A stretch of 46,323 nt of DNA, from positions 1 to 46,323 of the forward strand of contig JAJYLC010000007.1 of assembly GCA_021787935.1 (NCBI GenBank), read 5' to 3'. Below the pieces are notes generated by a model. That model saw only the letters and a list, made by a program, of their open reading frames with translations, had not been told where the DNA came from and ran no database searches. Positions within the stretch are counted from its first letter, which is position 1, and the number at the start of each line of letters is the position of its first letter. Origin of the DNA: Chloroflexota bacterium. Its GTDB lineage: Bacteria; Chloroflexota; Dehalococcoidia; SZUA-161. Shown here piece after piece: positions 1,772-35,635 of this stretch. The position numbers and the translations under genes are program-made.

Positions 1772-1849
1772 GCGCCCGTGAGTTCGAGACGATGAAATCT
1801 TACAAAAACTGCCAAATTACGAGCGCTGTCTATTTGCTGCTTCTAAAAA

Positions 1850-1920
1850 TGTGATGACTTTTTAATTTTTTGCCGTTTCTTTTTATAACTTCTTGACGTA
1901 AAGCTGGTTAATATGGGAAT
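1850..1920 (+). promoter_or_regulatory. Conserved upstream element shared with the aldehyde dehydrogenase locus (copy A)
   Basis: This 71-bp stretch lies just upstream of moaD and aligns without net gaps to 16991-17061 upstream of the aldehyde dehydrogenase gene. Identical blocks are TGTGA, the 16-mer ACTTTTTAATTTTTTG (1857-1872) and GTTAATATG (1907-1915). The last two are 50 bp apart, start to start, in both copies. TAATAT could be a -10 box, which would place the transcript start about 30 bp before moaD. No good -35 box sits at the matching distance, which would fit an activated promoter. The element itself is seen in the sequence; the regulatory role is inferred. Confidence 0.65.
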
Positions 1921-1953: not shown

Positions 1954-2226
1954 GTGAGTGTGCGAATTGAAATTCCGCCTCTTTTACGGCATCATACCAA
2001 CGGCGTGATCACAGCCGAGGTAAAGGGCAGCACTGTCGGCGAATGCCTTAACTCTTTTGCCAAACAATACCCCGGCACCAGGAAACGGCTGTTCGATAAG
2101 AACGGCAAATTGCTGCGTTATGTTGAAATCTATGTTAATGGTGAGACTAGCTATCCTAAAGAACTGGCCAGGCAGGTAAATGATGGGGATGAGATCTCCA
2201 TAGTGTATTTAATAAGCGGAGGTTGA
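1954..2226 (+). CDS. MoaD/ThiS-family ubiquitin-like sulfur carrier
   Basis: This 90-residue protein ends in the diagnostic Ser-Gly-Gly tail, whose terminal glycine is thiocarboxylated to carry sulfur during molybdopterin/tungstopterin synthesis. A beta-grasp pattern is visible, with VRIEIPPLL at the start, GSTVGECLNSF in the middle and GDEISIVYLISGG at the end. GTG is taken as the start, with AAGG about ten bases upstream; ATG is not available in this frame. The stop codon overlaps the first possible ATG of the downstream aldehyde oxidoreductase gene (TGATG), so the two are probably translationally coupled. Pairing a MoaD-like protein with an AOR gene is common and suggests a dedicated pterin cofactor supply. 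Confidence 0.85.
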   Translation: MSVRIEIPPLLRHHTNGVITAEVKGSTVGECLNSFAKQYPGTRKRLFDKNGKLLRYVEIYVNGETSYPKELARQVNDGDEISIVYLISGG

Positions 2227-4100
2227 TGGGTAAAATGAAAGGAATAACCAGAAAATTTCTGAGGGTGAATCTCTCAAACGGGAAAATAGGAGAAGAAGCT
2301 ATACCCGAGCAGGTTGAGACAGATTTCATAGGCGGCAGGGGCTTCGGCATCCATTATCTCTACCGCGAATTAGTCCCCAAATCCGATCCCCTGGGTGAGC
2401 ATAATAAGCTGATATTCGTGGCCGGGCCACTGGCCGGGACCACCGCCCAGGCGGTGTCTCGCTGGATGGTGTACACAAAAAGCCCCCTTACCGGCGCCTT
2501 GGCCCGTTCGGTGTCCGGGGCGGACTTCGGAGCCTGGATAAAGTTTGCCGGGTACGAATTCATCCTGGTCGAAGGCAAAGCAGAAAGGCCGGCCTACATA
2601 CATTTGACCAGAGATACATGCCGGATCGAGCCCGCTGACGAGCTGTGGGGAAAGGATACTGCAGCAACTCAGGAATGGCTGACCCGGCGCCACGGATTGA
2701 ACACTCGAGCGGCCTGCATTGGCCCGGGCGGAGAGAACCTAGTGAAGTATGCCGCCATCGTCACACACCGGAGGACCGCTTCCCGATGCGGCGTCGGTGC
2801 GGTAATGGGTTCCAAGAACCTCAAGGCGATAGCCATTAATGCGGAACGCAATCTACAGCTCTATGACCCGGAAGGCTTCAAGAAACTGGTGAAACAGCAG
2901 ATTCAAACTATGATGGCGAACAAGGCTTTTCAGTACCATAGAGAAATGGGCACCACCGGCAACCCGGAAAATACCAGCGAGCTTGGGATATTCCCGACCA
3001 AAAACTTCCGCTACGGACGGCTGGATGACTACGAAAAAATAACAGGTGACGAATATTTAAAACACCGAATAGGACAGTTCGGCTGCTACAGCTGCGCCGC
3101 CCGGTGTGGTAAAATTCACCATGTTACAAAGGGACTTTATGCGGGAGCTCAGAGTGAAGGCCCTGAGTATGAAAGCATCTGGGCTTTCTCCGGTCCTATA
3201 GAGAACTCTTCTCTGGAAGCTACCATAGCTGCAGACCAGTTGTGCGATGACCTGGGCATCGATACCATCAGCACAGGAAACACCATCGGCTTCGCCTATG
3301 AGCTTTATGAGAAGGGGCTGCTAACCAAAAAGGACACCGACGGGCTGGAGCTAAAATACGGTAACCATAAGGCGATGGTGGAGCTGGTCAAGAAGATAGC
3401 CAGACGGGAAGGAATCGGCGACCTGCTGGCCGAAGGGACAATGCGAGTCGCTGAGAAGATTGGCAAAGGGGCCGAAGCCTTCGCTATCAACGCCAAGGGC
3501 CTCGAGCTGCCGGCGTATGAGCCGAGAGGTTCCAAGAGCCTGGGCTTTAATTACGCCACCAGCAATATCGGGGGTAGCCACAGCTACGGCTACGCTACTC
3601 AGGAGGTCCTCGGCGCTTCTTTTCCCAGGAGAGTGGACCGTTTCGCCGAAGAGGAAAACGCAGATATTGTAATATTTAATCAGAACAACGTAGCCGTGGG
3701 CGAGGTGGGCATTGCCTGCGCCTTTTCCCGGGGCTGGTTCCCTCAGGTCTACGATAAGCTGTTGATCGCCGCTACGGGCATCGATAAGATTGCCGAGCGA
3801 GGTTACCTCATGCACGTTGGCGAGAAGATTGTTAACCTGGAACGGGCCTTCATTGTGCGCGAAGGTTTCGGACGGAAACAGGATACGCTACCGCAGAGGA
3901 TGCTCACAGAGCCCCTGCACACGAGGGGATCGCCAGGCGAGGGGCAGATGATCAGAAATCTGGACAAATTCCTGGACCGCTACTACGAGCTACGGGGATG
4001 GACGCCGGAGGGCATACCCTCGTCTGAAAAGCTGGAGGAACTAGGACTGGGTTATATGACAAAGGACATGGCTCAATATCACCATATTAAGGCCACTTGA
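2226..4100 (+). CDS. Aldehyde ferredoxin oxidoreductase (tungsten-type)
   Basis: This 624-residue protein matches the usual length of the AOR family, tungsten bis-pterin enzymes that oxidise aldehydes to carboxylates with ferredoxin, or run the reverse reaction. The N-terminal beta domain shows FIGGRGFGIHYLYREL, the family hallmark. The [4Fe-4S] ligands are visible as C287-x2-C290-x3-C294 and the distant C498 in GIACAF. The pterin-binding segment CDDLGIDTIS is present. ATG at 2226 is chosen because GGAGG lies three bases before it, the same spacing as in the next gene; TTG at 2223 and ATG at 2235 are alternatives. It is coupled to moaD upstream and followed after eight bases by an ABC exporter. 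The physiological aldehyde is unknown. Confidence 0.92.
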   Translation: MGKMKGITRKFLRVNLSNGKIGEEAIPEQVETDFIGGRGFGIHYLYRELVPKSDPLGEHNKLIFVAGPLAGTTAQAVSRWMVYTKSPLTGALARSVSGADFGAWIKFAGYEFILVEGKAERPAYIHLTRDTCRIEPADELWGKDTAATQEWLTRRHGLNTRAACIGPGGENLVKYAAIVTHRRTASRCGVGAVMGSKNLKAIAINAERNLQLYDPEGFKKLVKQQIQTMMANKAFQYHREMGTTGNPENTSELGIFPTKNFRYGRLDDYEKITGDEYLKHRIGQFGCYSCAARCGKIHHVTKGLYAGAQSEGPEYESIWAFSGPIENSSLEATIAADQLCDDLGIDTISTGNTIGFAYELYEKGLLTKKDTDGLELKYGNHKAMVELVKKIARREGIGDLLAEGTMRVAEKIGKGAEAFAINAKGLELPAYEPRGSKSLGFNYATSNIGGSHSYGYATQEVLGASFPRRVDRFAEEENADIVIFNQNNVAVGEVGIACAFSRGWFPQVYDKLLIAATGIDKIAERGYLMHVGEKIVNLERAFIVREGFGRKQDTLPQRMLTEPLHTRGSPGEGQMIRNLDKFLDRYYELRGWTPEGIPSSEKLEELGLGYMTKDMAQYHHIKAT

Positions 4101-4108
4101 GGAGGCAC

Positions 4109-5095
4109 ATGTTTACGCACAATCCTGGCAACGACAGCAATACCGCAGCTGACGAGGTTATTCGCTGCGATAAACTGACCAAACGCTACGCGGACGGGGA
4201 TATCCTGGCCGTGGATCAACTCGATTTGTCGGTGTACCACGGGGAGATCTTCGGACTGCTGGGACCGAACGGCGCGGGCAAGACAACAACCGTTGGAATG
4301 CTCACTACCCTGGTCATCCCGACCGGCGGCAAGGCCATTGTGGCCGGCGTCGACGTGGTGGCACAGCCAGCGCTGGTCAAGCAGATGATAGGCGTGGTGG
4401 CTCAGACCAATAACCTGGACCGGGCTCTGACGGTCTGGGAGAACCTGTACTACCACGGCCGCTTCTTCGGGATGAATCGCAAAGAGGCCCGCGCGGCAGC
4501 CGATGAGTACCTAGTAAGGTTTCGACTTGCCGAACGAGCTAAAGCGGAAGTGATGGCTATTTCGGGCGGCATGGCAAAACGGCTCATGGTGGCGAGAGCG
4601 CTTCTGCACCATCCGTCGGTCCTCTTCCTCGACGAGCCCACGGCAGGCCTCGACCCTCAGGCACGCATCGCCCTCTGGGAGATACTCGATAAGCTGCATG
4701 CCGAGGGGCAGACTATCCTGCTGACGACACATTATATGGAGGAGGCTGATGCACTCTGCAACCGACTGGCAATAATGGACCACGGCCGCATACTGGCTCT
4801 GGACACACCGAAGAAGTTGAAAGAGTCGGTGGCTGCGGACACCATCGTAACTGTATCAGCCACTGGCGACCTCGATGCCCTCGCCAGGCTCCTTCAGGAA
4901 CAAGTTGAGGGAGCGACCAGGAGCCAGCGACTCGATACCACCATCCAACTCCATGTCAAAGGCACAACCGGCGTGCTGCCCAGGGTTGTCACTGTCGCCG
5001 AGCAGGGAGGTTATAACATCACTGACCTCTCCATAGCCGAGCCCACCCTGGAGACAGTCTTCATCAATCTGACGGGAAAGGAGCTGCGAGACTGA
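4109..5095 (+). CDS. ABC transporter ATP-binding protein (DrrA-like exporter)
   Basis: This ATPase of about 328 residues energises an ABC-2 type exporter. Walker A is GPNGAGKTT with Lys58, the signature is ISGGMAKRL in place of LSGG, and Walker B is LFLDEPTAGLDP, followed by the H-loop TTHYMEEAD. The C-terminal extension after residue 230 is typical of daunorubicin-resistance (DrrA) and NodI type ATPases. ATG at 4109 is preceded by GAGGAGG; an upstream in-frame TTG at 4097 lies on the ribosome binding site and is rejected. It follows aor closely, and its stop overlaps the start of the permease by one base, so the three genes form one operon. The exported substrate is not evident. Confidence 0.88.
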   Translation: MFTHNPGNDSNTAADEVIRCDKLTKRYADGDILAVDQLDLSVYHGEIFGLLGPNGAGKTTTVGMLTTLVIPTGGKAIVAGVDVVAQPALVKQMIGVVAQTNNLDRALTVWENLYYHGRFFGMNRKEARAAADEYLVRFRLAERAKAEVMAISGGMAKRLMVARALLHHPSVLFLDEPTAGLDPQARIALWEILDKLHAEGQTILLTTHYMEEADALCNRLAIMDHGRILALDTPKKLKESVAADTIVTVSATGDLDALARLLQEQVEGATRSQRLDTTIQLHVKGTTGVLPRVVTVAEQGGYNITDLSIAEPTLETVFINLTGKELRD

Positions 5096-5967
5096 TGGCT
5101 ACTACCACTTCATCTACAGGCCGCACAACTATACGTATGCGCTCACAAGGGGTTGCCAGCCGCATCGCCTTCGGAGCACTGTTGTTACGTGACCTGACTG
5201 TGTTGAAAAAGAATTTGGGCATATTCATCGCGCGCACGCTAATCCAGCCCTTCCTTTTGGTATTCGTTTTCCTATTCGTTTTCCCTAAAATCGGCCAGGG
5301 CATCGGCGGAGGTTCGGGGCTTGCCGGCGAATCCGCGTTCGCTGCCGTCCTGGTGTCTGGCGTAGTAGGGTTGTCGATTATGTTCCAGGGGATTCAGGCC
5401 GTAGCTCTGCCCCTGGCTAACGAGTTCGGCTATACTAAAGAGATCGAGGACAGGGTGCTGGCGCCCCTGCCGGTATCTTTAGTAGCTATCGGCAAGGTGC
5501 TGGCCGGAGCCATACAAGGTCTGATCGCTGCAGCTATCGTCTTCCCTATCGCGTATGCCATACACGCCAGGGGCGTGGAGGTGCACTTATCAGTGCACTG
5601 GGTTCTACTGATTACGCTCATCCCGCTCACCTCCATTATGACCTCCAGCCTTGGTCTGGTGCTGGGAACTCGCATCTCGCCGCGCAACATAGGACTTATG
5701 TTCGGGTTTATCGTGCTGCCCCTAACATTTCTGGGCGGTACTTATTACCCTTGGGAAACGCTGTCAGCGATTAAGGTCGGAGGCTTCCCCTGGCTGCAGG
5801 CCCTGGTCTGCATCAACCCGCTAATTTACGTGACTGAAGGGTTCCGGGCCGCGTTAACTCCCGCAGCACACATGCCGCTGTACGTGATTTACCCGGTGCT
5901 GGTTGGGTTCTGCGTTCTATTCCTCTGGCTCGGCGTCAGGGGCTTTTACAGAAGGGTGCTCAGCTAG
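5095..5967 (+). CDS. ABC-2 type permease (DrrB-like)
   Basis: This 290-residue membrane protein is the permease partner of the preceding ATPase; its ATG overlaps the ATPase stop (TGATG). Six hydrophobic segments can be followed, starting near IARTLIQPFLLVFVFLFVFP and ending with YVIYPVLVGFCVLFLWLGV. The conserved ABC-2 loop GGTYYPWETL with nearby INPLIYVTEGFR is clear. It resembles daunorubicin-resistance and lipid or polysaccharide exporter permeases. The gene ends in a four-base convergent overlap with the M41 peptidase gene, leaving no room for a terminator between them. Confidence 0.87.
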   Translation: MATTTSSTGRTTIRMRSQGVASRIAFGALLLRDLTVLKKNLGIFIARTLIQPFLLVFVFLFVFPKIGQGIGGGSGLAGESAFAAVLVSGVVGLSIMFQGIQAVALPLANEFGYTKEIEDRVLAPLPVSLVAIGKVLAGAIQGLIAAAIVFPIAYAIHARGVEVHLSVHWVLLITLIPLTSIMTSSLGLVLGTRISPRNIGLMFGFIVLPLTFLGGTYYPWETLSAIKVGGFPWLQALVCINPLIYVTEGFRAALTPAAHMPLYVIYPVLVGFCVLFLWLGVRGFYRRVLS

Positions 5968-6470
5968 CCGACAATGGCTTCTCGGATAATCTGGCGAGCC
6001 AGGCGTTCCCCGATAAATCTACGCTTGGTCAGTTCCTTGGCGAAGATTTCGACGGCATTCCAATGAGATTCGGAAGCCAGTAAATTCCTGGCGCGTGCCG
6101 AGAGCCAGTTTACGTAGGCTTTGGCCTCTTTATCGTCACCGGATAAATACATAGCCGTATTATGAGCCAGCGTCATATCATCGCCGCTGCCGTTCGGGTA
6201 TACGCTGCCTAATTTCAAACGTTCTGCCGTAGCGCCGGCAAGCAAAACGATAATCAGCTTCTCAATCTGGGCGCGAAGCCTGTTCGTAACCGGAGCATCG
6301 GGTTTGAAGGTTGCCAGATTTCTGTATTCGCAGTGACCCAGAGTATGGTCAATAGGATTCGGTATTATAGAAACGCAAGCCAACCTCCTGTGAACCAGGT
6401 AAGAGGCCACGGCGTGACCGGCCTCGTGGTACGCAGCTCGCTCCAATTTAGTCAAAGAAGTTTTGTTCAT
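5964..6470 (-). CDS. Stand-alone M41 (FtsH-type) zinc peptidase domain protein
   Basis: This 168-residue protein carries the zinc-binding HEAGH motif at His15-His19 within AAYHEAGHAVASYL, as in the peptidase domain of FtsH. A downstream segment with GSGDDMTLA provides the third acidic ligand region seen in M41 enzymes. The AAA+ ATPase module and membrane anchor of FtsH are absent, so this is a detached peptidase domain. ATG at 6470 is preceded by GGAG; the longer reading frame to GTG at 6551 has no ribosome binding site. It cannot be ATP-driven by itself and may act on unfolded protein or pair with another protein. No such partner is encoded nearby. Confidence 0.78.
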   Translation of the reverse strand: MNKTSLTKLERAAYHEAGHAVASYLVHRRLACVSIIPNPIDHTLGHCEYRNLATFKPDAPVTNRLRAQIEKLIIVLLAGATAERLKLGSVYPNGSGDDMTLAHNTAMYLSGDDKEAKAYVNWLSARARNLLASESHWNAVEIFAKELTKRRFIGERLARQIIREAIVG

Positions 6471-7087
6471 GGCTCCAACCCTGGAAACCACTTTCGCAAC
6501 ATGAGCTCTGAACCCGTAATCATAGTAATATCCGGCGCATAAAAAAGTCACAAAATTTGGGTGAAAAGTGTTAAAAAAGGCTTACGTTTTTTACAGTGTA
6601 GCTGCGCAAAGGGGAATCCAGTAGACCTGCGCAATCTGTTAAAGATTTTTGGCATAGCACGGCCCCAGTTTTATGTCGCATGAATTATTCAATTTTGGGG
6701 TCGCCGGACGCCGGGATTTCGCAAGCCGTCTTCAGCTTCGGCTGAACGCAGCGGGGACTGTTCAGGTAAAAAACCTCCCTTTAAGGGCGACATCCCCAAA
6801 ACAAAATCCCACATATTCAATTTTCCAGGGAATGCCAAGAGCTTGGTGCAACCAGCCATTGGCTTAAAGCCATCAGCCCACAATAGTGAGGCTCAGTAGA
6901 TGCCGGCTGCGGCTCTTGAATTGGGTCGGGCACTGTGTACATTCAGTCCCGATGATATGGGACAATAATAGAACATAAGTTCTTCTTTTGTCAAGGAGAA
7001 AATGTCGCGGGTGTAGCTCACCGCAGAGAACGCTGAAGAAAAGGGTTTCCGTAGTTACTACCTTGAAAATAGATGCTTGAGATCTGT

Positions 7088-7189
7088 GTCATTCTGGGCT
7101 TTAGCGAAGAATCTCGGGACAAAGCCCTGTTTATTATCCGAGATTCTTCGGTCGCCCTTCCCGAGTGGGAAGGGCGACCGAAGAATGAC
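7088..7189. repeat. GTCATTCTGAG-type palindromic element, copy 1 (MITE-like)
   Basis: A 102-bp element bounded by GTCATTCT and AGAATGAC. Inside are CGAAGAATCTCG and its inverse CGAGATTCTTCG, the motif TTTATTATCCGAGATTC, and a terminal stem-loop GCCCTTCCC/GGGAAGGGC. A second copy with the same order of parts lies at 21537-21633. Confidence 0.8.
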
Positions 7190-16807: not shown

Positions 16808-16990
16808 TTATCTATCTCCATCCCTTCTGTTCATTACGACGCTTTATATACAGACAAGGCTTACACTAGGTAACCACCACCCCCTGCAGTGCTTCATGCT
16901 GTCTCATATCCCTTTCGACTGGCAAGACCCTCCCACTATCCTCCCACCCTTCGCAGCCAGATAGCGTCACTTTCAAGCCGCTCGCAAGAA

Positions 16991-17061
16991 TGTGACAACT
17001 TTTTAATTTTTTGACGTCTCAATTTTATGACTATTTGATGGAATCCAGTTAATATGCAAAT
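16991..17061 (+). promoter_or_regulatory. Conserved upstream element shared with moaD-aor (copy B)
   Basis: Counterpart of the element before moaD. TGTGA, ACTTTTTAATTTTTTG (16998-17013) and GTTAATATG (17048-17056) fall at identical spacing, and the gene start lies 31 bases after the last block (39 in copy A). The middle part between the blocks is less conserved. A shared regulator of two aldehyde-processing loci is inferred. Confidence 0.65.
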
Positions 17062-17086: not shown

Positions 17087-18835
17087 ATGACCACAGATAC
17101 TTTATTAGGTTCGCCGCAATTCCCCGTGGCTCCGACTAGCATTCCATCGTCTACCAGGGAGGCAATGGATGCTTCGGTGCAGACTCTACAGTCACGGAAG
17201 GACACATGGGTGAACACCCCCATAAGCGAGCGCCTCAAACTGCTGGACAGGATGATGAAGGACTCTGCTGCTATTGCCTGCCGCTGGGTTGATAGGTCCC
17301 GGGAGGCCAAGGGGATGCTGGCAAATGCTGCCACGGCCGACGAATGGAGCGTGGGTCCTTATGCCTTGCTCAGGAACTTGCGCGGACTGCGCCGGTCTCT
17401 GGCCGACATCAACCGTTATGGAAGCCCCAGAATTCCAGGCCCCATCGTAACCAGGCCTGACGGCCAGGTTGTCGCGCGTGTATTCCCCAAAAATATATAT
17501 GATCGCATCTTTCTCGGCAGCCTTACGGCGGAAGTCTGGATGCAGCCCGGGGTGACCCCAGTAGATCTCCCTAAAACTCTGGCCCTGGCTTATCAGGACA
17601 AGCACCACGAAGGCAAAGTGGCACTGGTGCTCGGGGCAGGAAACTACCTGGCCATTCCGGCCATGGACATACTGTACAAGCTGTTTGTGGAAGACCACGT
17701 GGTGCTGCTCAAGCCAAACCCGGTGAACGCGCAGCTTGGCTCATTAATAGAAGATTGTTTTCGAGCTCTGATAGAGCAGGGGTTTCTGCGCATCGTGTAC
17801 GGAGGAGCGGCCGAGGGAGCTTATCTCTGCAGCCACGCAGGGGTGGATGAGATTCATATCACCGGATCGGACAAGAGCTTCGACGCCATTGTCTTCGGGA
17901 CGGGATCGGAGGGCGCCAGGCGTAAGAGAGAACGCAATCCATTGCTGACCAAGCCCATCACAGCAGAGCTGGGAAATGTCACCCCGGCGATCGTAGTGCC
18001 CGGCCCCTGGAGCTTCAATGACCTCACCTACCAGGCTGAACACATAGTTACAATGCTCACCGAAAATGCCGGCTTTAACTGCGTAACTACCAGGGTGATT
18101 CTGCAGCACGCATCCTGGACGCAGCGGGGTCAGCTATTGGAGAAGATACGGCGGCTATTGTCCCGAGCACCCTTGCGCACTGCTTATTACCCGGGGGCTC
18201 GTGACCGGCACAGGGCATTTGTCTCGGCACATCCGGAGGCTGAGATGTATGGTAAGCCCACCGATGAGCAGCTTCCCTGGACACTTATCCCGGGTGTCGA
18301 CCCCAAAAACAAGGGCGATATCACCTTCACCACTGAGGCATTTTGCAGTCTCTTTGCCGAAACCCCTATCGAGGCCAAGACTGTCCCGGAATATATCGAG
18401 CGCGCTGTCGAATTCGCCAATAAGAACCTCTGGGGTACACTGGCTGCTACACTTATAGTCCATCCATCATCGCTTAAGGACCCCGCGGTGGCCGCTGCGG
18501 TCGAACGCGCCATTGCCGACTTGCGTTACGGGACAATAGGCGTAAACTACTGGGCGGCAGCTGCATACTCCATGGCCGTAACCCCCTGGGGTGCTTTCCC
18601 GGGGCACACTATCGACAATATCCAATCGGGCATTGGCATGGTTCACAATACGTTTATGTTCTCTCGGCCGCAGAAAACGGTGTTGCGAGCGCCTTTCCGC
18701 ACCAGGCCTGTACCAATCTGGTTCGAGACCCGCGCTAAAAGGGGATGGAAGGTTTTCCCGAAACTGGTACAGTTCGAGGCATCGCCATATATATGGAAAG
18801 TCCCGGCCATTATCTGGGCTGCCCTCAGGGGTTAA
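17087..18835 (+). CDS. Aldehyde dehydrogenase-superfamily protein
   Basis: This 582-residue protein is a divergent member of the NAD(P)-dependent aldehyde dehydrogenase superfamily. The conserved glutamate appears in ITAELGNVTPAIV (Glu294), and the catalytic cysteine in ENAGFNCVTTRV (Cys332). Other family motifs are VALVLGAGNYLAIPAMD, VVLLKPNPVNAQ and IHITGSDKSFDAIV. It is about 80 residues longer than standard ALDHs, mainly at the ends; the C-terminal part (QKTVLRAPFRTRPVPIWF onward) is unusual. ATG at 17087 has GGAGGTGG just upstream; an earlier ATG at 17054 lies inside the conserved promoter element and is rejected. It is followed 27 bases later by a ThDP enzyme, so it could oxidise the aldehyde that enzyme releases. 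Confidence 0.83.
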   Translation: MTTDTLLGSPQFPVAPTSIPSSTREAMDASVQTLQSRKDTWVNTPISERLKLLDRMMKDSAAIACRWVDRSREAKGMLANAATADEWSVGPYALLRNLRGLRRSLADINRYGSPRIPGPIVTRPDGQVVARVFPKNIYDRIFLGSLTAEVWMQPGVTPVDLPKTLALAYQDKHHEGKVALVLGAGNYLAIPAMDILYKLFVEDHVVLLKPNPVNAQLGSLIEDCFRALIEQGFLRIVYGGAAEGAYLCSHAGVDEIHITGSDKSFDAIVFGTGSEGARRKRERNPLLTKPITAELGNVTPAIVVPGPWSFNDLTYQAEHIVTMLTENAGFNCVTTRVILQHASWTQRGQLLEKIRRLLSRAPLRTAYYPGARDRHRAFVSAHPEAEMYGKPTDEQLPWTLIPGVDPKNKGDITFTTEAFCSLFAETPIEAKTVPEYIERAVEFANKNLWGTLAATLIVHPSSLKDPAVAAAVERAIADLRYGTIGVNYWAAAAYSMAVTPWGAFPGHTIDNIQSGIGMVHNTFMFSRPQKTVLRAPFRTRPVPIWFETRAKRGWKVFPKLVQFEASPYIWKVPAIIWAALRG

Positions 18836-21402: not shown

Positions 21403-21536
21403 AAGACTCCTTCTAAATTTCGATAGCTTGAATTATACCCATTAGTACAACATCCTACAAGGACTCGATCTCCAGCAGTACCATTCCAGGTATAACATAA
21501 CCCGTTCTATTCACGCCAAACAACGAAAGCCCCAAT

Positions 21537-21633
21537 GTCATTCTGAGCTTTAGCGAAGAATCTCGCTACTAAGCTCGGTTTATTATCCGAGATTCTTCGG
21601 TCGTCCCGAACCATCGGGACTCCTCAGAATGAC
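21537..21633. repeat. GTCATTCTGAG-type palindromic element, copy 2 (MITE-like)
   Basis: 97-bp element with perfect 10-bp terminal inverted repeats GTCATTCTGA/TCAGAATGAC. It shares with copy 1 the order CTTTAGCGAAGAATCTCG, TTTATTATCCGAGATTCTTC and GGTCG, then a small stem-loop (GTCCCGA/TCGGGAC). No coding capacity. Confidence 0.82.
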
Positions 21634-34138: not shown

Positions 34139-35527
34139 TCAATAGTTGGCTTTGGCCACGGACTCGATGTTCTGCAAAATACTGTCCAGTTGGCTAGGAT
34201 TCTGCAGGTAGGACAGGACGCCAGCCCAATACGCATTTTCCACCGCTGCCGGCATAGCATCATCCTGGCTGAACCGGAAGATGGCAGCAGTGCTCAGTTG
34301 CCTGGCTGCATTCTGAGTTACAACATCCGGGTAGTCGCTCAAGGGTACTTGGTTGTTGACCGAAGTGAAGCCACCGCGTTTGACCCATATATCCTGTGCG
34401 GCCGCAGTAGATAGATACGTGACCAGGGAACGGACGGCCGGCGTATCCTTAAACGCTACCACCAGGTCTGCGCCGCCGGTCACAGCACTAGTGTAATTAC
34501 CGTTAATGACGGGGAAGGGATAGAAGTTGTAGTCCTGCCCTGCCACCAGGCTGGGGAATTGGGTGGAGATGAACCCTGCGGTGAAGTCCCCCAGATAGTC
34601 CATAGCTGCCTGGGGCGGCGTCTCGAAGGGCAGGTAGGTACCATCCTGGAAGTTGGTGGCTAGAATCGCAGTAGCTCCGCCAGGAACGTAGCCTGGGGTC
34701 AGGGCGATCTGGCCGAACATCTGGAAGGCGTTCTTGACCCTGGAATCCGTCCATGGAATCTGATGGTTGACCCACTGATCGCTAACATTACCGCCGTACA
34801 AACTCAGGAAAATCTGGTCGATCCAGTCAGCGCCCGGCCAGCCGCTTGCGGCACCACTTGAAACGGCTACAGACCAGGGGTAAGCAGGCGTGGTCTTAGC
34901 CGCCACGATCTGATTGGAAAGCGCTATCATTTGGTTCCAGGTCTGCGGAGTGGTCCAGTTATTGGCCGTAAACGTTTTAGGGTCGTACCATATAGTCCCC
35001 TTGCTGGAGGCCTTCATGAAGATGGAATAGAGGTTCCCATTTACGGTGCCGAGGTCGACCCAGCCTTTCGAATAATCGGCGTTGATGGTCGTCATATTGA
35101 GAAAATTACTCAATGGTATCAGATTTCCGGCTTTGGCGAACTGCTGCATCAGCCCCGGGTTAGGAAGAATAGCGACATCAGGTGGATTGCCCGCCTGTAT
35201 GCGAGTAATCAGTTCAGCATTCAAGTCTCGGGTGCCGGTGAAATTCACCTTGCCGCCCGTCTGCTGCTCCCATGGTGCCACCATAGCGTTGAAACTAGCT
35301 AGCTCTTCCCCACCCCAGGTCCCCAGCACCTCAACGCTGCCAATCGGCGATGTGACTGGAGTAGGGGTAGGCGTTGCAGCAACCGTTGGGGTGGGAGTAG
35401 GAGCGACCGTCGGCGTAGGAGTTGCCGTGGGCGTCGTCTTGCAGGCGAAAGAGCCTAATAGAGCTACCATGACCACCATCACCACCCCCAGCCAGAGCTT
35501 GCTGCGATGTAACGGAGTCTTTCTCAT
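34139..35527 (-). CDS. Sugar ABC transporter substrate-binding lipoprotein
   Basis: This 462-residue protein starts with a basic n-region MRKTPLHRSK, a hydrophobic stretch LWLGVVMVVMVALLGSFA and Cys29 as lipidation site (lipobox GSFA-C is slightly unusual at -3). A linker of about 35 residues made of Thr, Pro and Ala repeats follows, then a type-I carbohydrate-binding fold beginning VEVLGTWGGEELASFN, with NPPDVAILPNPG. It is closest in style to alpha-glucoside-binding proteins, but the sugar is not certain. ATG 35527 has AAAGGAGGT upstream; the frame continues 27 codons further without a site. First gene of the importer operon. Confidence 0.9.
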   Translation of the reverse strand: MRKTPLHRSKLWLGVVMVVMVALLGSFACKTTPTATPTPTVAPTPTPTVAATPTPTPVTSPIGSVEVLGTWGGEELASFNAMVAPWEQQTGGKVNFTGTRDLNAELITRIQAGNPPDVAILPNPGLMQQFAKAGNLIPLSNFLNMTTINADYSKGWVDLGTVNGNLYSIFMKASSKGTIWYDPKTFTANNWTTPQTWNQMIALSNQIVAAKTTPAYPWSVAVSSGAASGWPGADWIDQIFLSLYGGNVSDQWVNHQIPWTDSRVKNAFQMFGQIALTPGYVPGGATAILATNFQDGTYLPFETPPQAAMDYLGDFTAGFISTQFPSLVAGQDYNFYPFPVINGNYTSAVTGGADLVVAFKDTPAVRSLVTYLSTAAAQDIWVKRGGFTSVNNQVPLSDYPDVVTQNAARQLSTAAIFRFSQDDAMPAAVENAYWAGVLSYLQNPSQLDSILQNIESVAKANY

Positions 35528-35595
35528 TTTACAGATACCTCCTTTAATATTTATTTGTAGTGGAAATAGTAACAAGCATGTAATTAAGAAGTTAT

Positions 35596-35635
35596 AAAAT
35601 TGACGCATGAAATGTTAAATTTCCGTGACATTTCA
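35596..35635 (-). promoter_or_regulatory. Promoter and operator candidate upstream of the sugar importer
   Basis: TGAAATGT (35608-35615) and ACATTTCA (35628-35635) form a perfect 8-bp inverted repeat with a 12-base spacer. The left arm also belongs to GAAAT-gttaa-ATTTC. On the minus strand TTAACA and TATAAC are 16 bp apart and overlap this palindrome, so a repressor bound here would cover the -35 box. The likely regulator, such as a LacI-type protein, is not in the window. Confidence 0.5.

Follow-up and report, generated by a model that had tools for sequence, protein, structure and literature searches.

A recurrent two-box promoter motif in Dehalococcoidia and its probable control by an OmpR/PhoB-family response regulator

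The window analyzed here is a 46,323-nucleotide stretch of DNA (positions 1 to 46,323 of contig JAJYLC010000007.1, assembly GCA_021787935.1) from a Chloroflexota bacterium (Dehalococcoidia; SZUA-161). An earlier note on this DNA had described one element upstream of both an aldehyde ferredoxin oxidoreductase (AOR) locus and an aldehyde dehydrogenase locus and had proposed a common regulator of an aldehyde regulon. We found that the element belongs to a promoter motif of about 70 bases that recurs throughout the 2.68-Mb genome, and its anatomy and downstream genes suggest that it is probably a promoter that depends on an activator and serves a large stress regulon, the likely switch being a two-component regulator of the OmpR/PhoB family. 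The idea of a promoter with a putative common regulator thus holds up, but the aldehyde scope does not, since only 2 of ~74 copies lie at the AOR and aldehyde dehydrogenase genes. To our knowledge, almost nothing is known about gene control in the Dehalococcoidia, which are abundant in anoxic sediments.

In a pattern search of the window, TGTGA-NN-ACTTTTTAATTTTTTG matched at 1850-1872 (copy A) and 16991-17013 (copy B), both on the + strand, with no third match in the window when up to 3 mismatches were allowed and none in 100 dinucleotide shuffles of it. As the earlier note had stated, a single element with identical spacing precedes the two loci: TGTGA, the 16-mer and GTTAATATG each recur at a distance of exactly 15141 bases, sequence identity drops to background to either side of the element, and the end of TAATATG lies 39 bases from the GTG at 1954 (copy A) and 31 bases from the ATG at 17087 (copy B). 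That three-part description was incomplete, however, in that a second putative regulator box overlapping the −35 region had been missed. This middle block is also conserved between copies A and B (TTTTATAACTTCTTGAC / TTTTATGACTATTTGAT; consensus TTTTATRACTNnTTGA) and was overlooked because it is displaced by one base, following TGTGA by 31 bases in copy A and by 32 in copy B. Also missed, along with the genome-wide and class-wide extent of the motif, were two copies on the minus strand of the window. Profile searching placed four copies there, at 1846-1914 (+), 16989-17055 (+), 35566-35633 (−; copy C, E 6.4e-11) and 6522-6589 (−; copy D, E 3e-9). Copies A, B, C and D had weight-matrix scores of 63, 54, 42 and 29 bits, respectively, and the maximum of the reversed-sequence control was −7.6.

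The layout of the promoter became clear from 61 aligned copies, numbered with the T of TGTGA as position 0 and with the −10 element taken to start at −12. Box 1 (aaaTGTgATAACTTTTTAACCTTTT) occupies motif positions −3 to 21, which places it at about −71 to −50 of the promoter, and is followed by a pyrimidine-rich spacer. Box 2 (ATTTTATGACTTCTTnAT, positions 30 to 47) comes 31 bases after box 1 and spans −41 to −24, covering the −35 region. After a further 11 to 12 variable bases, a −10 element, TAnnAT, stands at about position 59 throughout the alignment, and conserved sequence reaches upstream to about −74. This layout agrees with earlier suggestions that TAATAT is the −10 box and that a putative regulator site is found around −60. 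In copy A, box 1 is at 1850-1871 (proposed half-sites 1850-1855 and 1861-1866, plus a TTTTT tail), box 2 is at 1881-1897 (proposed half-sites 1881-1886 and 1892-1897) and the −10 element TAATAT is at 1909-1914. The corresponding elements of copy B are at 16991-17012, 17023-17039 (spacing 32 instead of 31) and 17050-17055, all likewise on the + strand.

Self-similarity of the profile was strongest at a shift of 31, as a direct repeat, and box 2 repeats box 1. A near-invariant A occurs at positions 4, 15, 35 and 46, giving spacings of 11, 20 and 11, and it is plausible rather than proven that these mark four half-sites of the form T[GT]TnA[TC]. When the first half-site was compared with the rest of the motif, the best-matching shifts within 3-42 included 11, 31 and 42, and one reading of the motif is as 6-5-6 repeats at 0/11 and 31/42; other registers score too. 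Tandem OmpR/PhoB boxes would fit this arrangement because the spacing of the near-invariant A residues resembles that of the KdpE site and of PHO boxes.

Copy counts for the whole genome rest on pattern searching and profile searching. With a relaxed pattern there were 44 matches, compared with 2 for the reversed control, and nearly all of them continue into the second block 31 bases downstream and then into a −10-like hexamer. Single-block matches at C2, C128 and C129, in which box 2 is absent, were set aside as chance matches. A profile of 70 positions (R1) was built from 61 copies, and the search with it found 74 copies in the genome, 73 of them with E <= 0.0013. The earlier note had regarded random or coding positions as telling against its idea; none of the 70 copies checked lies inside a called gene. 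A gene start falls within 150 bases of the −10 element in 46 of 67 copies and within 400 bases in 58 of 67 (median, 80). Because the flanks are unrelated and the copies diverge gene by gene, we ruled out a mobile or repeated element as the source of the copies.

Within the family, a strict two-box pattern matched 7 of 9 genomes, with 0 control matches. Profile R1 found copies in 50 of 394 Dehalococcoidia genomes, representing 21 families, and when 390 genomes sampled across the phylum were searched, all of the matches listed fell in the Dehalococcoidia. The named relatives with exact matches are Dehalococcoidia metagenome-assembled genomes, including bin1158, B_CHL_03, E44_bin56, Kmv37 and SZUA-161. 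A pattern search of contigs returned 22 stretches, all but one labelled Dehalococcoidia or Chloroflexi. The exception is a motif copy (L102:2736-2782) on a 3.6-kb contig labelled Deltaproteobacteria (Meg22_24_Bin_96), which may reflect a binning error or a transfer.

A Pfam scan of about 60 proteins encoded downstream of motif copies identified two rubrerythrins, a Dps-like ferritin, hemerythrin and peptide methionine sulfoxide reductase (MsrA), together with two UspA proteins, DJ-1/PfpI, Hsp20, Ku, BON, DUF488 and YCII proteins and proteases of the Lon and FtsH/M41 types. There were also several glyoxalase-fold proteins, the pentose-phosphate enzymes RpiB, 6-phosphogluconate dehydrogenase and ribulose-phosphate epimerase, cysteine desulfurase, P-type ATPases for cations and heavy metals, Rieske and cupredoxin proteins, and pyridine nucleotide-disulphide oxidoreductases, one of them thioredoxin-reductase-like. 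To these the window adds MoaD-AOR, aldehyde dehydrogenase, a solute-binding lipoprotein and an M41-like peptidase. The regulons of SigB, RpoS, EcfG and mycobacterial DosR, a NarL-type regulator, overlap with this set in content, having Dps, UspA, Hsp20, Ku, proteases and detoxification. Here, too, many varied stress-protection genes stand under one promoter class, and the set looks like a regulon for general or oxidative stress. Within it AOR and aldehyde dehydrogenase play a minor part, and several of its stress proteins (the glyoxalase-fold proteins and DJ-1) could also handle aldehydes. The expectation that further copies would precede only redox or aldehyde genes fails as worded and is borne out solely if "redox" is widened to stress defence.

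The best candidate for the motif's regulator is an OmpR/PhoB-family response regulator encoded in the same genome (G000:C146:61124-61819), with a receiver domain (PF00072, E 1.8e-33) and a C-terminal winged helix (PF00486, E 1.2e-17). Another response regulator, CheY-like and encoded after the C96 copy, was rejected as the regulator, having a receiver domain only and no DNA-binding part. Divergently adjacent to the candidate gene is its partner kinase, of MASE3-PAS-HisKA-HATPase architecture. The kinases of relatives keep PAS-HisKA-HATPase and vary in the sensor part, which is MASE3, GAF or MEDS; at loci L201, L206, L215 and L205, the same response regulator is accompanied by kinases whose sensor parts differ by lineage (GAF, MEDS, MASE3), as if the sensors had been swapped between lineages. 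In one relative the regulator orthologue (G125:C25:31291-31971) reads through one in-frame TAG. A CRP/FNR-family gene (L067:4501-5199 in G000:C146) also lies beside the MASE3 kinase, upstream of other motif-preceded genes.

The candidate regulator and the motif occur together. Orthologues were separated from paralogues in a class-wide search (E <= 3e-82 and 57-100% identity versus E >= 3e-70 and at most 52%), and the motif was present in 37 of the 38 genomes with an orthologue versus 13 of the 356 without one (Fisher p about 1e-39, uncorrected for kinship). G006, a genome of the same family, has neither. The two are also neighbors: in 25 of the 30 best regulator loci, the motif begins 15-296 bases past the regulator stop codon on the same strand, and in one further locus it lies 147 bases upstream on the opposite strand. 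The chance of such adjacency is about 1% per locus (74 sites in 2.7 Mb) and lower in small genomes. Six small genomes have a pair of outward-facing copies, separated by 2.6-2.9 kb, with just two genes between them, those of the divergent regulator and histidine kinase; for L206 the regulator reading frame was recovered in a separate step. In G291 these two bracketing copies are the only ones. In the genome studied here (C146) and in others, the same regulator adjoins the motif copy of the PfpI gene.

Among solved structures, the nearest to the regulator is MtrA (2gwr), followed by KdpE (4kfc/4kny) with an E value of about 1e-42. KdpE requires R193 and R200 for DNA binding (PMC3264566). The matching residues are invariant in 31 regulator orthologues, and T215 is nearly so. 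At kdpFABC of Escherichia coli, KdpE binds an AT-rich 6-5-6 direct repeat, TTTATA-N5-TTTACA (PMC3264566), which is much like the TGTGAT-N5-TTTAAC and TTTTAT-N5-CTTnAT read here. The two systems differ in that the partner kinases here are of the MASE3/PAS, GAF/PAS or MEDS/PAS type, those scanned having neither a KdpD nor a Usp domain, and in that two boxes per promoter precede dozens of stress genes instead of one potassium-pump operon; no kdp gene was among the downstream genes seen, though no direct search was made. With PhoB, the system shares the OmpR/PhoB fold, a strict distance between box and core promoter (PMC10294691) and, as proposed here, 11-base direct repeats such as those of PHO boxes (PMC4415409), whereas the sequence is different, the two boxes are 31 bases apart, and the genes serve stress instead of phosphate. 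OmpR/PhoB regulons with direct-repeat boxes are a known kind.

From these features we propose the following mechanism. The sensor histidine kinase (of the MASE3/PAS type in this genome) would sense stress, oxidative or general, and the phosphorylated regulator would bind both boxes, which are 31 bases, or three helical turns, apart, each box probably being a pair of 11-base-spaced half-sites. Bound there, the regulator would take the place of a proper −35 hexamer and recruit RNA polymerase with the housekeeping sigma factor (sigma-A type) to the TAnnAT −10 element, thereby activating transcription.

Several observations weigh against this proposal. The reading as 11-base half-sites has competitors, since shifts of 23, 8 and 13 outrank 11 in an unconstrained search, which also picks up an AT-rich dyad. 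The Fisher statistics take no account of shared ancestry, and G068 carries the regulator and no site. Conversely, 13 genomes have at least one site and no regulator orthologue detected, even after every candidate was rescored. Several of these have one weak site each, but missing contigs are a poor excuse for G114 (97% complete, 6 sites) and G348 (91%, 4 sites). It would be informative if another regulator had taken over in G114 and G348.

These two genomes would be easier to understand if the same regulon were read by another factor, such as a CRP/FNR-family protein, with the response regulator being only a neighbor or a target. A CRP-family gene (PF00027, PF13545) does adjoin the kinase in the genome itself, and TGTGA at the start of the motif is a CRP half-site. 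However, a search for the CRP/FNR dyad TGTGA-N6-TCACA found no TCACA half in the motif consensus, the strongest self-similarity of which is the direct repeat at 31 bases, and the gene followed by the motif in 25 of the 30 loci is that of the response regulator and not a CRP gene. We therefore regard another binding factor as unlikely. Less likely still is an alternative sigma factor that reads box 2 as its −35 element and TAnnAT as its −10 element, with box 1 as an UP-element-like site for the alpha subunit. The fixed distance of 11-12 bases between box 2 and the −10 element would suit such a factor, as would the stress-type gene set, given that general stress responses elsewhere (SigB, RpoS, EcfG) are sigma driven. 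Yet box 2, with about 17 conserved bases, exceeds the footprint of sigma region 4, boxes 1 and 2 are repeats 31 bases apart that have specific G and C positions, and no sigma gene was noticed next to the sites, though sigma genes were not surveyed. A SigB-type promoter, moreover, has non-sigma-A −10/−35 hexamers, whereas the −10 element here, TAnnAT, is sigma-A-like. Each of the two alternatives accounts less well than a two-component regulator does for the anatomy or the adjacency. The regulons of SigB and EcfG have been described (PMC9847131 and PMC6599016); unlike these and that of RpoS, the regulon proposed here would depend on an OmpR-type activator that recognizes a specific sequence and works at a sigma-A-like −10 element, and on no alternative sigma factor. 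An aldehyde-specific regulon confined to the two window loci is highly improbable. AOR and aldehyde dehydrogenase do follow copies A and B, and the regulon does include glyoxalase-fold and DJ-1 proteins, but the genes after about 70 other copies are those for rubrerythrin, ferritin, UspA, Hsp20, Lon, Ku, BON, hemerythrin and other proteins, and this genome-wide distribution rules out the aldehyde-only version.

Beyond this genome, we lean toward the view that much of the uncultured Dehalococcoidia runs its general or oxygen-stress response through a single conserved regulator of the OmpR type that acts on a two-box promoter of rigid layout, and not through an alternative sigma factor, with a lineage-specific kinase sensor (MASE3, GAF, MEDS) and a regulon that ranges from the 2 flanking promoters to more than 70. 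We found no earlier description of the regulon, the promoter layout or its spread in Dehalococcoidia in the literature searched, the coverage of which excluded most subscription journals. Some 70 genes, many of unknown function, would be assigned to stress defence, in what would be an example of one regulator whose regulon has grown in size from 2 to more than 70. With a ~70-base motif present in dozens of copies, a candidate regulator identified by name and an interpretable list of genes, a whole stress response becomes testable without culturing.

Under copy A, the predicted first gene encodes a MoaD/ThiS-family sulfur carrier (1954-2226, +; PF02597) and the second encodes AOR (2223-4100, +; PF01314, PF02730). 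From 1954 to 5967, moaD, aor and the genes of an ABC ATPase and an ABC permease follow one another head to tail with overlaps, and copy A therefore probably drives a four-gene operon. The genes predicted under the other copies encode an aldehyde dehydrogenase-family protein (copy B; 17087-18835, +; PF00171), the solute-binding lipoprotein (copy C; 34139-35527, −; PF01547) and the M41-peptidase-like protein (copy D; 5964-6491, −; PF01434). Genome G001, of the same genus, retains the motif at both aldehyde loci (C32:527 and C32:13272). Separately, the window contains a 71-base repeat at 7087-7157 and 21536-21606, 90% identical and with inverted arms (GAGATTCTTCG / CGAAGAATCTC), which looks like a dispersed palindromic repeat element.
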